From Ustilago trichophora (lineage: Eukaryota; Basidiomycota; Ustilaginomycetes; Ustilaginales; Ustilaginaceae), in assembly GCA_900323505.1 (NCBI GenBank), contig OOIN01000001.1, forward strand, positions 558,001 to 622,000: DNA of 64,000 nucleotides, written 5' to 3'. The notes below the pieces were generated by a model, which worked only from the letters and a program-made list of their open reading frames with translations, made no database searches and was not told the DNA's origin. A program made the translations under genes and the position numbers. Below are positions 13,309 through 17,103 of this stretch, piece by piece; the first letter of the stretch is position 1; every line of letters starts with the position of its first letter.

Positions 13309-16300
13309 TCACTTGTCCCACGCAACGCGGCCACCGGCAAAGACATACGGATAGGCCGTCTGGTAGTAGTTGACAAACGTGCGTCGACCCGCGATCGATG
13401 GTGCCGTTGCATAGCTGCCACCGAGCACCACGCTGTGCTTGCCATCGAAAAAGTCCGAGCTGTAGCCAGGGTACAGCGCCGAATTCTGGAAGCCTTGATA
13501 CTCGGCGAAGATGGTGCTCGTCCATTCCCAGACCCCTCCGTTGTGACCCGGCAGCAGTGTGCCGTCAGAATCATAGCGCGGCAAGCTGGCTGGCACTGGG
13601 TGCCAATTTCGGAAGCCTACATTCGAAGACGGCGCCGCCTGGCCCTGAGTCGGATTCTGCGATCCTCGGCGCTTCGCAGGCTGTGTCGTTGCCTCGCTTT
13701 CCGAGGTGGTACCCGGACCATGCATCGAGATACCAGGCGGGTGGATCTCGGTCTTGAGCACACGTCGAGATTTGTTCTGTGGCTTTGGAGCGTTGGTGTT
13801 CTCCGTCACGTAGAAGCGACGAAGCATCATGATGGCTTCATCGCGAAGGTAGCCACCCACCGATTCGTAGCCGGGCGAGCTGACAATCGCGTCATCGTCA
13901 TGAAGACCAAGCACGCTGCCGTTGCCTCCGAAGCGCTCGTTACCGGCACCAAACACAACTCGTTGGATGCCAATCTGTCGAAGCGCCGCTCCACACATGA
14001 TGCAGGGCTCAATGGTGACGTAAAGCGTGGTATCCTTGAAAGGGTTGTCTCCTTCTGGACCCGAGTGAGGCGCGACCGCAAAATCGGCTGCGGAGGGAGG
14101 CAGGATGGAAAGAATGTGGTCAATGGCCTCGAGCTCCGCATGCCTGGTAGCGTTGAGAAGCTCGTTGGTGCGATTGCGTCCGCGAGCAATGATTTCGCCC
14201 CTGCGCACAAACACGCCACCTACAGGGACCTCGTTGGCATCCAGCGCTTCCTGCGCCATGGCGAGTGCCTCTCGCATCCACTTGAGGTCCTCCTCCGACT
14301 GCTCCTCGATCGGGACATACCGAACAGCGGAGCCACGGACGGGAGGCGTCTGCTTGCCAGGAGGGTCAATGTCATTCGCTTCGGGCTCTTCCTTTGCCGA
14401 GTCTCGGTCGAAAGGAGGCACCGTCAAGTCAAGCACCAAAGCCTCGGGAGGAGCATCCATAAGTTTGCGAAGCTCTGCTTGGGAAGGGAGCCGGCCGCCT
14501 TTCCATGCAGCGTAGGCCGAAAGCTGCTTGCCTGAAGCCTGAACCGGCCAGTGTTGGGCTGTCACCATGTCGACAGGCCCGTAGAAGGTACGAACCGAGT
14601 AGCTTTCTCCACTGTCGCTCTTGAGCCACGAAGCGGGGGCGTCCGCACTATCTGTAGCTTTGAGGAAGTCAAGATACTGAGCGTTCGAGATGGGCAGCGC
14701 CGAGATAGAGAATGACATGGTCTCGACTCGTCGTCGAGGATGCTCATTGTCCCAACCGAACTCGGGCTGGCCGAGCTGCATGTTGAGATCTCGAATGTCA
14801 CTTGTCGGACGGGCCGCAGTGATCTCGAAATCTCGCGTATCGTCGTCGTCATGCCCCAGCTCTACAGACGAGGCTTCAAAGTGAAAGCGTTGCTCCAAGG
14901 CTCGACGGCCACCACGTTTCTCGTACTCGGCTTGCCACCGTTTCGACAAAGTAGCCCAATCCGGCGCCATGAAGCCGGCAGGAGGCTTGGTGTTGGGAGA
15001 CTGGATGAGCATGTACAGCAGGGTCTCGAGATGGAGGTTGACATGCTCGAGTGTCATCCACAGCATCCTCGCGAGCCTGCGGTTCATGACCAGATCACCA
15101 CGTTCAACGTCTCCGTAGATCTGCTGTACGCGTGCCTGCACCGTTTGTTGATACTTGAGAATCTCGTCGAGCGTAGGCCAGTCTTGTTCGCAGGTGGGCA
15201 CTTCGCTGTGCGGATTGCACTGAGTGATATCATCCATGTGCGGGTCAATGCCACGCTCAAAGATGGTGGAGAAGCGATCGTTGGTGTGAGATCGTTTGAG
15301 ATAGGTGGCAACGTGGATGTCGACAAATGCAGGGATGTGGCCGAGGTAGAACAGGCAAATGTGACGGAGGTCAATGGGCTTTTCGTGCAACTTGTCTCGA
15401 GGGATCATGGTCAAGGTGACGCAGTTCCAGGCATCCCAGACCGTCTTCCAGTCTCGGAGGCTGGGCAGACCGAGCAGAGCGGCCTTCTGAGCCATTTCGT
15501 CCAAGTTGCTGCCTCCCCAGCCATCGTCAATTTTGGTCGCTCCTTGAGCCTGGCTTGCCTCCGAGCTCACCTTCGAGGCGAGCGATACGACATCGACTCC
15601 AGAGTTGGAGAAATGGAAGCTCGGTTTCTCGACGAGCCAGATGTCATACCGATCGGTCTTGTCGCTCCAGCGCTGAACGACACGGAGACCGGCATAGTCG
15701 AACAGGTTGAGAGTCTCGCGCTCGCCAAACTTGTAGCTTGCCTCCATGTGAATGAGCTCGCCTTTCTCGATCTTGATCGACTCGGTCAAGCCTGGGACTC
15801 GGATCTCCTGCGCTTCCTTGGCGCGATAGTAGGATTCGTGACGACCTTCGCGGGCGTTGTAACGGTCAAAGTACTCGAACTTGCGACTATTGATGGCTTT
15901 GCCGCCAAGCGCACGATCAGCATGGTCGAGACCGTTCATGATGAAGTCGCGTGTGAGACCTGCCGGGTCATTGTAGGCCAATGCGACATCAGCAGGCTTG
16001 TTGCGGCGATCAACGGAGATGAGCATAGTGTCACCGGGACGCATACTTTCGCGTGCCGTCTTGGCGAGGAACTCGGCAGCGGACTTGCGATCAAAGTTAC
16101 CGATGCTGGAACCGAGCCAAAGGAGGCACCGCTGACCTTCGACCTGTGCACCGGCAGCTGTCGACGGACCTTGGAGTCCGCCTCTGCCGATAAAGTCGAG
16201 GCCGGCGTCATAGGTGGCCCACAAGCCATTGAGGCCGACCTTGCCGCCGTGGATTGTCCACGCATCTTGGTCGGCGCTTGTGGCTTCTTGCTGTCGCAGA

Positions 16301-17103
16301 TCGCGCAGCGTGCGCTCCAGCTCGGCTTTATCGAGGTCCAAAGCATAGTAGTGAACGCTAGGTCCGCCTCCGGCAAGCGCGGGCAGGAGCTTGAGCGCGC
16401 GAAGGAGATGGATCGTCTTCTTGAGGGAGCCGGCACCGAGCTCCACGAGGGATCCTGCGCCCACAGCTCGGTCGCCGTCGAGACCTTCTTCGGCATTGAC
16501 TCCGCCGTTGAACCTGCCCACGTCGCTGTCGCCCCACCTCTCCTTGGTGGAGACACCCGCATCCCGCTGAGGAGGAAGGTGATCTTCCTTCTCAGCTTCG
16601 TTCTGGTTGTACTGAGGGGCCTGTTGATGTCCTGAGACGACGCCCAACGTCTTCTCGGTTGCTGTGGTTGAGTGACCAAAGATCCTGAGCGCGATCTCGG
16701 GACCATAATCTTTGAGGATTTGCAGTTCGGCGTTGTACAGATAGTACTCGGGAGCTGCGGTCAGCTTGTCGTAGAGGATGAGACCCTGTTCATCGTAGAG
16801 GATTGTTGTTGGCAACGTCTTCCTGTAGGCGTACTTGAGGTCCTCGGGGTCATTTTCCTTGCCAGGAATGACGAGCTGGTTGGCTTGGAGTCCCGAGATG
16901 ATTTCGAGTCGGAGCTGATCGTCGGTCGAGCTGCTGGAAAGGCTGCCAGCACTGCCCGAGTAGAGGTCGATGACGGGAGCATTGCTCAGCTTGGCAGCCG
17001 TGTCGGCGCCCGGTGCCTTGGGCATTGTCTTGTTTGGAGCGTCTGTCTTTAGGAGAGGAGAGTTGGCATCGATCGGTGTAGCTGCTACAGCGGCTGGAGC
17101 CAT
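13309..17103 (-). CDS. Egt1-type ergothioneine synthase with an embedded Tad2-type tRNA adenosine deaminase
   Basis: One uninterrupted 1264-residue frame. Residues ~55-495 form an EgtD-like SAM methyltransferase (histidine to hercynine; LVELGAGS, LLWLGSSIGNFDR). Residues ~550-705 form a DinB-like iron-binding region with HVNLHLE at 687-693 (HX3HXE). The FGE-sulfatase-like C-terminal domain starts near 800 and reaches GGRLPSQAELRKL (869-881), then resumes at NVGFRNWHPVP (1161) and ends at GGRVAWDK. Between the halves (~882-1160) lies a zinc deaminase very like Tad2/ADAT2: EVPVGG, HAE (988-990), PCIMC (Cys1034, Cys1037), NERFGGNGSVL and the ADAT2-like tail FYVTENTNAPKP. Tad2 with Tad3 makes wobble inosine-34 in tRNA. 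ATG at 17103 is preferred over an upstream in-frame Met because the extension looks like leader. Fusion versus alternative mRNAs cannot be settled from DNA. Confidence 0.88.
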   Translation of the reverse strand: MAPAAVAATPIDANSPLLKTDAPNKTMPKAPGADTAAKLSNAPVIDLYSGSAGSLSSSSTDDQLRLEIISGLQANQLVIPGKENDPEDLKYAYRKTLPTTILYDEQGLILYDKLTAAPEYYLYNAELQILKDYGPEIALRIFGHSTTATEKTLGVVSGHQQAPQYNQNEAEKEDHLPPQRDAGVSTKERWGDSDVGRFNGGVNAEEGLDGDRAVGAGSLVELGAGSLKKTIHLLRALKLLPALAGGGPSVHYYALDLDKAELERTLRDLRQQEATSADQDAWTIHGGKVGLNGLWATYDAGLDFIGRGGLQGPSTAAGAQVEGQRCLLWLGSSIGNFDRKSAAEFLAKTARESMRPGDTMLISVDRRNKPADVALAYNDPAGLTRDFIMNGLDHADRALGGKAINSRKFEYFDRYNAREGRHESYYRAKEAQEIRVPGLTESIKIEKGELIHMEASYKFGERETLNLFDYAGLRVVQRWSDKTDRYDIWLVEKPSFHFSNSGVDVVSLASKVSSEASQAQGATKIDDGWGGSNLDEMAQKAALLGLPSLRDWKTVWDAWNCVTLTMIPRDKLHEKPIDLRHICLFYLGHIPAFVDIHVATYLKRSHTNDRFSTIFERGIDPHMDDITQCNPHSEVPTCEQDWPTLDEILKYQQTVQARVQQIYGDVERGDLVMNRRLARMLWMTLEHVNLHLETLLYMLIQSPNTKPPAGFMAPDWATLSKRWQAEYEKRGGRRALEQRFHFEASSVELGHDDDDTRDFEITAARPTSDIRDLNMQLGQPEFGWDNEHPRRRVETMSFSISALPISNAQYLDFLKATDSADAPASWLKSDSGESYSVRTFYGPVDMVTAQHWPVQASGKQLSAYAAWKGGRLPSQAELRKLMDAPPEALVLDLTVPPFDRDSAKEEPEANDIDPPGKQTPPVRGSAVRYVPIEEQSEEDLKWMREALAMAQEALDANEVPVGGVFVRRGEIIARGRNRTNELLNATRHAELEAIDHILSILPPSAADFAVAPHSGPEGDNPFKDTTLYVTIEPCIMCGAALRQIGIQRVVFGAGNERFGGNGSVLGLHDDDAIVSSPGYESVGGYLRDEAIMMLRRFYVTENTNAPKPQNKSRRVLKTEIHPPGISMHGPGTTSESEATTQPAKRRGSQNPTQGQAAPSSNVGFRNWHPVPASLPRYDSDGTLLPGHNGGVWEWTSTIFAEYQGFQNSALYPGYSSDFFDGKHSVVLGGSYATAPSIAGRRTFVNYYQTAYPYVFAGGRVAWDK

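Follow-up and report, generated by a model that had tools for sequence, protein, structure and literature searches.

A Tad2-type tRNA deaminase is nested in the ergothioneine synthase gene of Ustilago trichophora and other Ustilaginomycetes

How does a tRNA deaminase come to lie inside an ergothioneine synthase, and is it made as part of that enzyme? The question is raised by one open reading frame (ORF) in a 64,000-nucleotide stretch of the Ustilago trichophora genome (contig OOIN01000001.1, positions 558,001 to 622,000 of the forward strand; hereafter the window, whose numbering is used for the locus). The original prediction, made from the letters of the window alone, had read this ORF as the ergothioneine synthase Egt1 with a complete Tad2 in its sulfoxide-synthase domain, and had offered two readings, either one polypeptide or a gene nested in another and made from its own transcript. 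Our results make it likely that one gene encodes one polypeptide with three activities, that Tad2 was inserted once and the free Tad2 gene was lost, and that the embedded Tad2 pairs with Tad3.

The ORF runs on the minus strand from an ATG at 17103 to a stop codon at 13309-13311 and encodes 1264 amino acids with no internal stop; its parts are listed in Table 1. An insert of 279 residues (codons 882-1160, 14460-13624) lies in a single loop of the FGE domain and consists of a complete Tad2/ADAT2 flanked by two linkers that are predicted to be flexible. The Pfam match to FGE-sulfatase is split into two stretches, the best of which covers residues 776-879 (2.3e-24), and in a profile search of the genome the two FGE halves correspond to profile positions 14-119 and 141-254 with the deaminase between them. 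The deaminase is matched by dCMP_cyt_deam_1 (PF00383; residues 937-1052, 4.1e-22) and by MafB19-deam (938-1065, 4.3e-22). The spacing between the G[G]RLP and NxGF..WHP motifs is 288-310 residues in all 15 fused proteins (the ORF of the window included), compared to 23-28 residues in the 54 non-fused sequences that match both patterns. When 13 fused proteins, four unfused Egt1 proteins and six free Tad2 proteins were aligned, the short loop of unfused Egt1 (DATSGPNVTDRPGS in Exobasidium) was found to be swapped for linker N, Tad2 and linker C, at the same junctions in the other fused proteins as in the window. Two fused proteins, P0007, whose N-terminus is shortened, and P0011, a plant-assigned record that lacks a stretch and has a changed C-terminus, were omitted from the alignments and the tree and were counted in the 15-protein motif tallies. 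The PPPVRGSxxxYVP stretch at the N-terminus of free Tad2 (for example P0122) and the RVLKTExxPPGxSMHG stretch at its C-terminus are both retained in the fused proteins, which suggests that nearly the entire Tad2 coding sequence was inserted, minus its start and stop codons. Taken together, the codon boundaries, the Pfam matches and the spacing counts bear out the 279 extra residues that had been predicted within the sulfoxide-synthase domain.

Table 1. Parts of the Egt1-Tad2 fusion ORF, in window coordinates.
Feature	Position	Strand	Basis
Egt1-Tad2 fusion ORF, 1264 aa + stop	13309..17103	-	ORF reading, Pfam; homologues across the whole searched region
Histidine-specific S-adenosylmethionine (SAM) methyltransferase domain, residues 214-492 (best Pfam stretch)	15628..16464	-	Methyltransf_33 2.6e-75; NCBIfam methyl_EasF above cut-off
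DinB-like region, residues 566-694, HX3HXE at its end	15022..15408	-	DinB_2 2.8e-4, 21.8 bits, under cut-off 24.8
First half of the FGE-like sulfoxide-synthase domain (residues 776-881), ending in GGRLPSQAELRKL	14461..14778	-	Pfam FGE-sulfatase profile positions 14-119
Linker N (residues 882-919), which contains the conserved DAPPEALVLDLTVPPF	14347..14460	-	Alignment; low pLDDT
Tad2/ADAT2 part, residues 920-1128; about 1105-1128 predicted disordered	13720..14346	-	PDB sequence match, ADAT2 fold, pLDDT
Linker C (residues 1129-1160), a variable stretch followed by the conserved NPTQxQAAP	13624..13719	-	Alignment, motif counts, low pLDDT
Second half of the FGE-like sulfoxide-synthase domain (residues 1161-1264), with NVGFRNWHPVP...GGRVAWDK	13312..13623	-	Alignment, profile search of genome

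The identity of the insert as Tad2 was also confirmed. Its zinc motifs are the catalytic HAE (residues 988-990) and PCIMC (1033-1037), and the catalytic motifs are intact in 15 of 15 fused proteins. The top sequence matches in the PDB are yeast TAD2 (7bv5_A, 1.1e-44) and ADAT2 (3dh1_A, 1.5e-42), whereas bacterial TadA structures match more weakly, at best with 3.6e-21. The Tad2 part clusters with basidiomycete Tad2 in a tree, and one member carries the UniRef name 'Related to TAD2'. A fold prediction of the deaminase emerging from the FGE-like domain had been suggested as a check, and in the AlphaFold model, analyzed by structure comparison, an EgtB-like fold is intact and completed by both FGE halves, and an ADAT2 fold hangs off it. 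Confidence is low, with a predicted local distance difference test (pLDDT) below 50, at residues 330-356 of the modelled fragment (894-920 of the ORF) and at 541-595, the latter covering linker C.

Both linkers hold recurrent motifs. In linker N, DAPPEALVLDLTVPPF (14410-14457) is exact in 9 of the 15 fused proteins and has a single change in five more, so in these sequences its conservation is far above that of a plain linker. Linker C carries RRx[ST] in 13 of 15, upstream of a conserved NPTQxQAAP-like stretch that is followed by the second FGE half; we take RRx[S/T] to be a PKA-like motif. It is conceivable, if improbable, that the nesting serves a function and is more than tolerated: with Tad2 tied into Egt1, an iron- and thiol-dependent enzyme, its access to Tad3 or to tRNA would change with the state of Egt1 or with phosphorylation of RRx[S/T], which would tune wobble-inosine decoding to nutrients or to redox state, the latter a coupling that the original prediction had raised as a possibility.

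The predicted landmarks of Egt1, namely the methyltransferase, HX3HXE in the DinB-like region and both FGE halves, were recovered as well. The PF10017 methyltransferase match (2.6e-75) is above its cut-off, and the HX3HXE iron motif is present in all 15 fused proteins, with HVNLHLE starting at residue 687 in the window. The DinB_2 profile gives the fusion 21.8 bits and the unfused control P0020 29.9 bits, against a cut-off of 24.8. The fusion falls below the NCBIfam equivalog cut-offs for EgtD, EgtB and TadA, as do the unfused controls P0020 and P0123; for egtD, the fusion scores 165.7 and P0020 153.0 against a cut-off of 290.9. Profile searches of the whole genome with PF10017 and PF03781 revealed no Egt1-type gene besides the fusion ORF and its second copy. 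In PMC10858013, 16 strains of basidiomycetous yeasts, among them U. maydis, P. hubeiensis and A. flocculosa, were examined and every one made ergothioneine, so the interruption of the FGE domain would seem not to abolish synthesis.

These parts suggest how the single polypeptide would work. The N-terminal methyltransferase would convert histidine to hercynine, and the DinB/FGE-type iron enzyme would add cysteine to form hercynylcysteine sulfoxide, the ergothioneine precursor. Tad2 would sit in a surface loop of the FGE domain on two flexible linkers, and the tethered Tad2 together with a separately encoded Tad3 would deaminate adenosine 34 (A34) of tRNAs to inosine. We infer that the cell makes the unspliced protein, that both halves are active and that the Tad2 part forms a dimer with Tad3. 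According to PMC11087585 and PMC8216470, Tad2 acts with Tad3, both are essential, and the N-terminal domain of Tad3 binds tRNA.

The arrangement is conserved in smuts and in yeasts closely related to them. Among the 120 listed of 301 matches to the searched region, 15 have all three domains (14 in addition to the fusion ORF), 99 have Egt1 but no deaminase and six have a deaminase but no Egt1, according to the Pfam column and a motif recount. Named species with fused proteins are Sporisorium graminicola, Kalmanozyma brasiliensis, Pseudozyma hubeiensis, Ustilago nuda, Testicularia cyperi, Thecaphora frezii, Pseudozyma flocculosa and Violaceomyces palustris; one further fused row is assigned to a plant, Cichorium endivia. 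By taxonomy look-up they span three Ustilaginomycete orders, Violaceomycetales (Violaceomyces), Urocystidales (Thecaphora) and Ustilaginales (Ustilago), and the order placement of the other named species is presumed. Two deaminase rows, P0121 and P0144, carry Egt1 sequence and represent fragments of the fusion. For both Sympodiomycopsis and Jaminaea there is one Egt1 row without deaminase and one free Tad2 row, and no Ustilaginomycete name was found on a free Tad2 among the best 120 of 7805 Tad2 matches. The 13 fused proteins cluster as a single group (85/80; 87% of bootstrap trees) in a tree built from 38 Tad2 rows; this group adjoins Tilletia and Malassezia, and the branch uniting all three has a support of 96/88. 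These results are consistent with a single insertion in the ancestor of the sampled Ustilaginomycetes, in which a nearly complete Tad2 coding sequence would have replaced a short variable loop in frame, the free Tad2 gene being lost afterwards.

The embedded Tad2 is also apparently the sole copy in the genome. The genome (38.8 Mb in 45 contigs, an assembly that is possibly incomplete) was searched in six frames, exon by exon, and the best candidates were scored. Two copies of the fusion locus are present (C1 and C2), with 90.5% DNA identity over the main matching piece, and the second copy likewise has an uninterrupted frame, with 0 gaps in 1264 codons. No Tad2 besides the fusion ORF and its second copy was found by protein search or by PF00383 and PF14437 profile searches of the genome, so the separate Tad2 gene that had been named as an objection to the prediction did not appear. 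The protein search gave five places, namely the fusion ORF, its copy, two of a small secreted-looking deaminase ORF and one probable chance match (E 0.033). PF14437 matched at seven places and PF00383 at 14, the latter forming seven pairs that were read as the fusion, a dCMP-deaminase-like, a secreted-looking, a cytidine-deaminase-like, a PAP2-linked, an unassigned and a SET-Tad3 deaminase; several of these enzyme names rest on motifs that we assume to be diagnostic. Every deaminase, Egt1 and Tad3 gene that was looked for is present as a pair, and the two egt1 copies have a DNA identity of about 90%, so the assembly seems, from these sequences, to hold two diverged genomes or haplotypes. In the PAP2-linked pair, a PAP2-superfamily domain and a deaminase share one ORF (L014 1219-2799, minus strand, C24 at about 8.1 kb, with a matching ORF in L015, C19 at about 498 kb), and Pfam scores the deaminase domain of the L014 copy with PF18785 (Inv-AAD, 2.1e-29) and PF00383.

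Conservation of the partner subunit had been suggested as a check, and Tad3 is indeed retained, encoded separately on both C1 and C2 and fused to a SET domain. The SET-Tad3 ORF matches solved Tad3/ADAT3 proteins by profile (8aw3_3, 3.3e-15; 7nz7_B, 6e-15; 7bv5_C, 7.3e-15); its AlphaFold model was poor (mean pLDDT 55.9) and was not used. The ORF lies at L030 1323-3476 (minus strand, C2 at about 2.457 Mb) and L031 1400-3604 (minus strand, C1 at about 2.466 Mb), and its SET domain, which precedes Tad3, resembles SET domain-containing protein 7 (5h6z_A, 1.6e-46). The 21 listed relatives are mostly from smuts, with one from Auriscalpium vulgare, and 19 of the 21 carry the Pfam SET mark; one of them, P0242 (Ustilago trichophora), is probably the searched genome's own. 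A substrate is present too, since tRNA-Thr(AGT), which requires deamination of A34 to inosine, accounts for 8 of the 30 tRNA-like loci scanned.

We next consider whether the frame is read as a whole. The synonymous divergence (dS) between the two genome copies of the fusion is 0.27 overall, and the ratio of nonsynonymous to synonymous divergence (dN/dS) is 0.007 in Tad2, 0.088 in the methyltransferase, 0.131 in DinB and the first half of the FGE domain together, 0.040 in the other FGE half, and 0.139 and 0.131 in the two linkers. Pooled, the linkers have 9 synonymous and 4 nonsynonymous changes, which is non-neutral (Fisher p=0.0007). In this comparison, selection on the Tad2 part is extremely purifying and extends over the junctions, the linkers evolving as coding DNA.

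The main alternative is that two products are made, a full-length or spliced Egt1 and a shorter product with Tad2 whose transcription or translation starts internally. It has a precedent in Fusarium: according to PMC11087585, FgTAD2 has long and short transcripts that differ in where transcription starts, and alternative initiation gives rise to two proteins. Possible start codons exist: the methionine of KWM, where the Tad2 core begins, is present in 15 of 15 fused proteins, and one at codon 882, where linker N starts, in 11. However, codon 882 is leucine in the other four, which have no other methionine ahead of KWM, so that no methionine before KWM is conserved across the 15 (presence or absence alone was used, since the offsets of rows shared with the alignments include gap characters). 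All 15 lack a stop codon after Tad2, and therefore an unspliced internal product would include the second FGE half. As for splicing, no in-frame intron with a consensus donor that would remove Tad2 was found among GTRNGN donors in codons 869-960 and YAG acceptors near the C junction: the sole such donor is in phase 2, whereas the six acceptors are in phase 0 or 1, and none has CTRAY within 60 nucleotides. The CTRAY part of this argument is weak because CTRAY is rare near YAG throughout the fusion ORF (2 of 83). Once weak donors are allowed, 31 in-frame GT..YAG combinations appear. Finally, among the matches listed, no Egt1 row that lacks Tad2 exceeds 75% identity over the matched part, a level much like that of the named Exobasidium protein (72%), and the unnamed rows among them are unplaceable. 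We therefore regard two products as unlikely. Taken together, the open frame over both junctions in 15 of 15 proteins, the coding-type evolution of the linkers and the lack of a consensus in-frame intron, a conserved methionine or a stop favor the first of the two predicted readings, one polypeptide, and leave the nested gene with its own transcript less supported.

Three further accounts fare worse. It is very unlikely that the fusion is translated whole and its linkers are then cut, which would free Tad2 and leave the FGE domain as two associated pieces; the linkers are predicted to be disordered and a basic RR pair occurs in linker C of 14 of 15 fused proteins, but DAPPEALVLDLTVPPF and NPTQxQAAP next to the junctions are conserved, more than a cut site alone would call for. 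Still less probable is an embedded domain that has lost its tRNA role and regulates or stabilizes Egt1, with inosine 34 made by another enzyme: no point in its favor was found, and the intact catalytic motifs, the dN/dS of 0.007, the failure to find another Tad2 in the genome and the retention of Tad3 all argue against it. An assembly or gene-model artefact that fused two loci has a negligible probability. The one record in its favor, P0121, shows only part of the arrangement and has a tail unlike the others, but it too has Egt1 sequence ahead of Tad2. A chimeric assembly, the error that had been considered, is rejected because the junctions are shared by both diverged copies in the genome and by 14 further proteins in the database.

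Several points weigh against one polypeptide of single origin. The polypeptide is predicted from sequence and modelled folds, and the placement of domains in the AlphaFold model is unconstrained (predicted template modelling score 0.68; linkers with pLDDT below 50). The linkers are short and their dN/dS test rests on 13 differences, and the weak-donor combinations leave room for splicing. Many database rows lack a species name, so some Ustilaginomycete may yet have a free Tad2 or an unfused Egt1, and tree support for one origin is moderate. The Tad3 candidate scores 15.7 bits against a Pfam deaminase cut-off of 25, and its name rests on the Tad3/ADAT3 profile match. The ergothioneine-producing strains in PMC10858013 differ from those whose sequences were compared, and its Table 1 has n=1.

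Among the closest known proteins is UM00197, the U. maydis Egt1 homologue of Pluskal et al. (2014), described in PMC4020840 as having methyltransferase and FGE domains with long non-homologous inserts of unknown function. It is of the same class, with a long insert in the FGE domain; that part of the paper leaves the insert unidentified, and its identity as Tad2, suggested by conservation in its relatives, would explain this puzzling insert. The original prediction knew of no description of the arrangement. We found no paper identifying the Egt1 insert as Tad2 in a search of listings and passages of open-access papers, but the insert itself had been noticed in U. maydis. Fungal Egt1 proteins such as S. 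pombe SPBC1604.01 and N. crassa Egt-1 share the order of EgtD-like methyltransferase, DinB/HX3HXE and FGE-sulfatase (PMC4020840, in its domain comparison), whereas the smut protein has a 279-residue Tad2-bearing insert in place of the short loop. According to the same paper, S. pombe lacking egt1 grows normally, while the smut fusion gene is predicted to be essential, which makes the prediction a sharp one: egt1 should not be simply deletable in smuts, a trap for the engineering of ergothioneine yeasts such as Pseudozyma or Moesziomyces. In every named Ustilaginomycete found, an enzyme essential for decoding would thus be a nested domain of an antioxidant enzyme that S. pombe can do without.

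Compared to Tad2/ADAT2, the catalytic subunit of the tRNA A34 deaminase, the smut domain is alike in sequence, catalytic motifs and predicted fold, but Tad2 usually exists as a small protein on its own, for example in Sympodiomycopsis, Tilletia and Malassezia, whereas that of the smuts is tied at both ends into Egt1. In yeast Rib2/Pus8, a deaminase-family enzyme and an RNA-modifying enzyme share one gene as an end-to-end fusion, in contrast to Egt1-Tad2, in which one enzyme is nested within the fold of the other. The SET-Tad3 of the same fungi is the partner subunit of the same heterodimer and is also fused, again end to end rather than nested. Both halves of the deaminase are therefore tied to other domains, which makes the reason for it directly testable. 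Egt1-Tad2 would be a clear case of a whole enzyme within the loop of another, both under selection; it is a gene fusion, and so of a known kind, that is unusual in its nesting, its apparent sole-copy status and its conservation over the sampled class.

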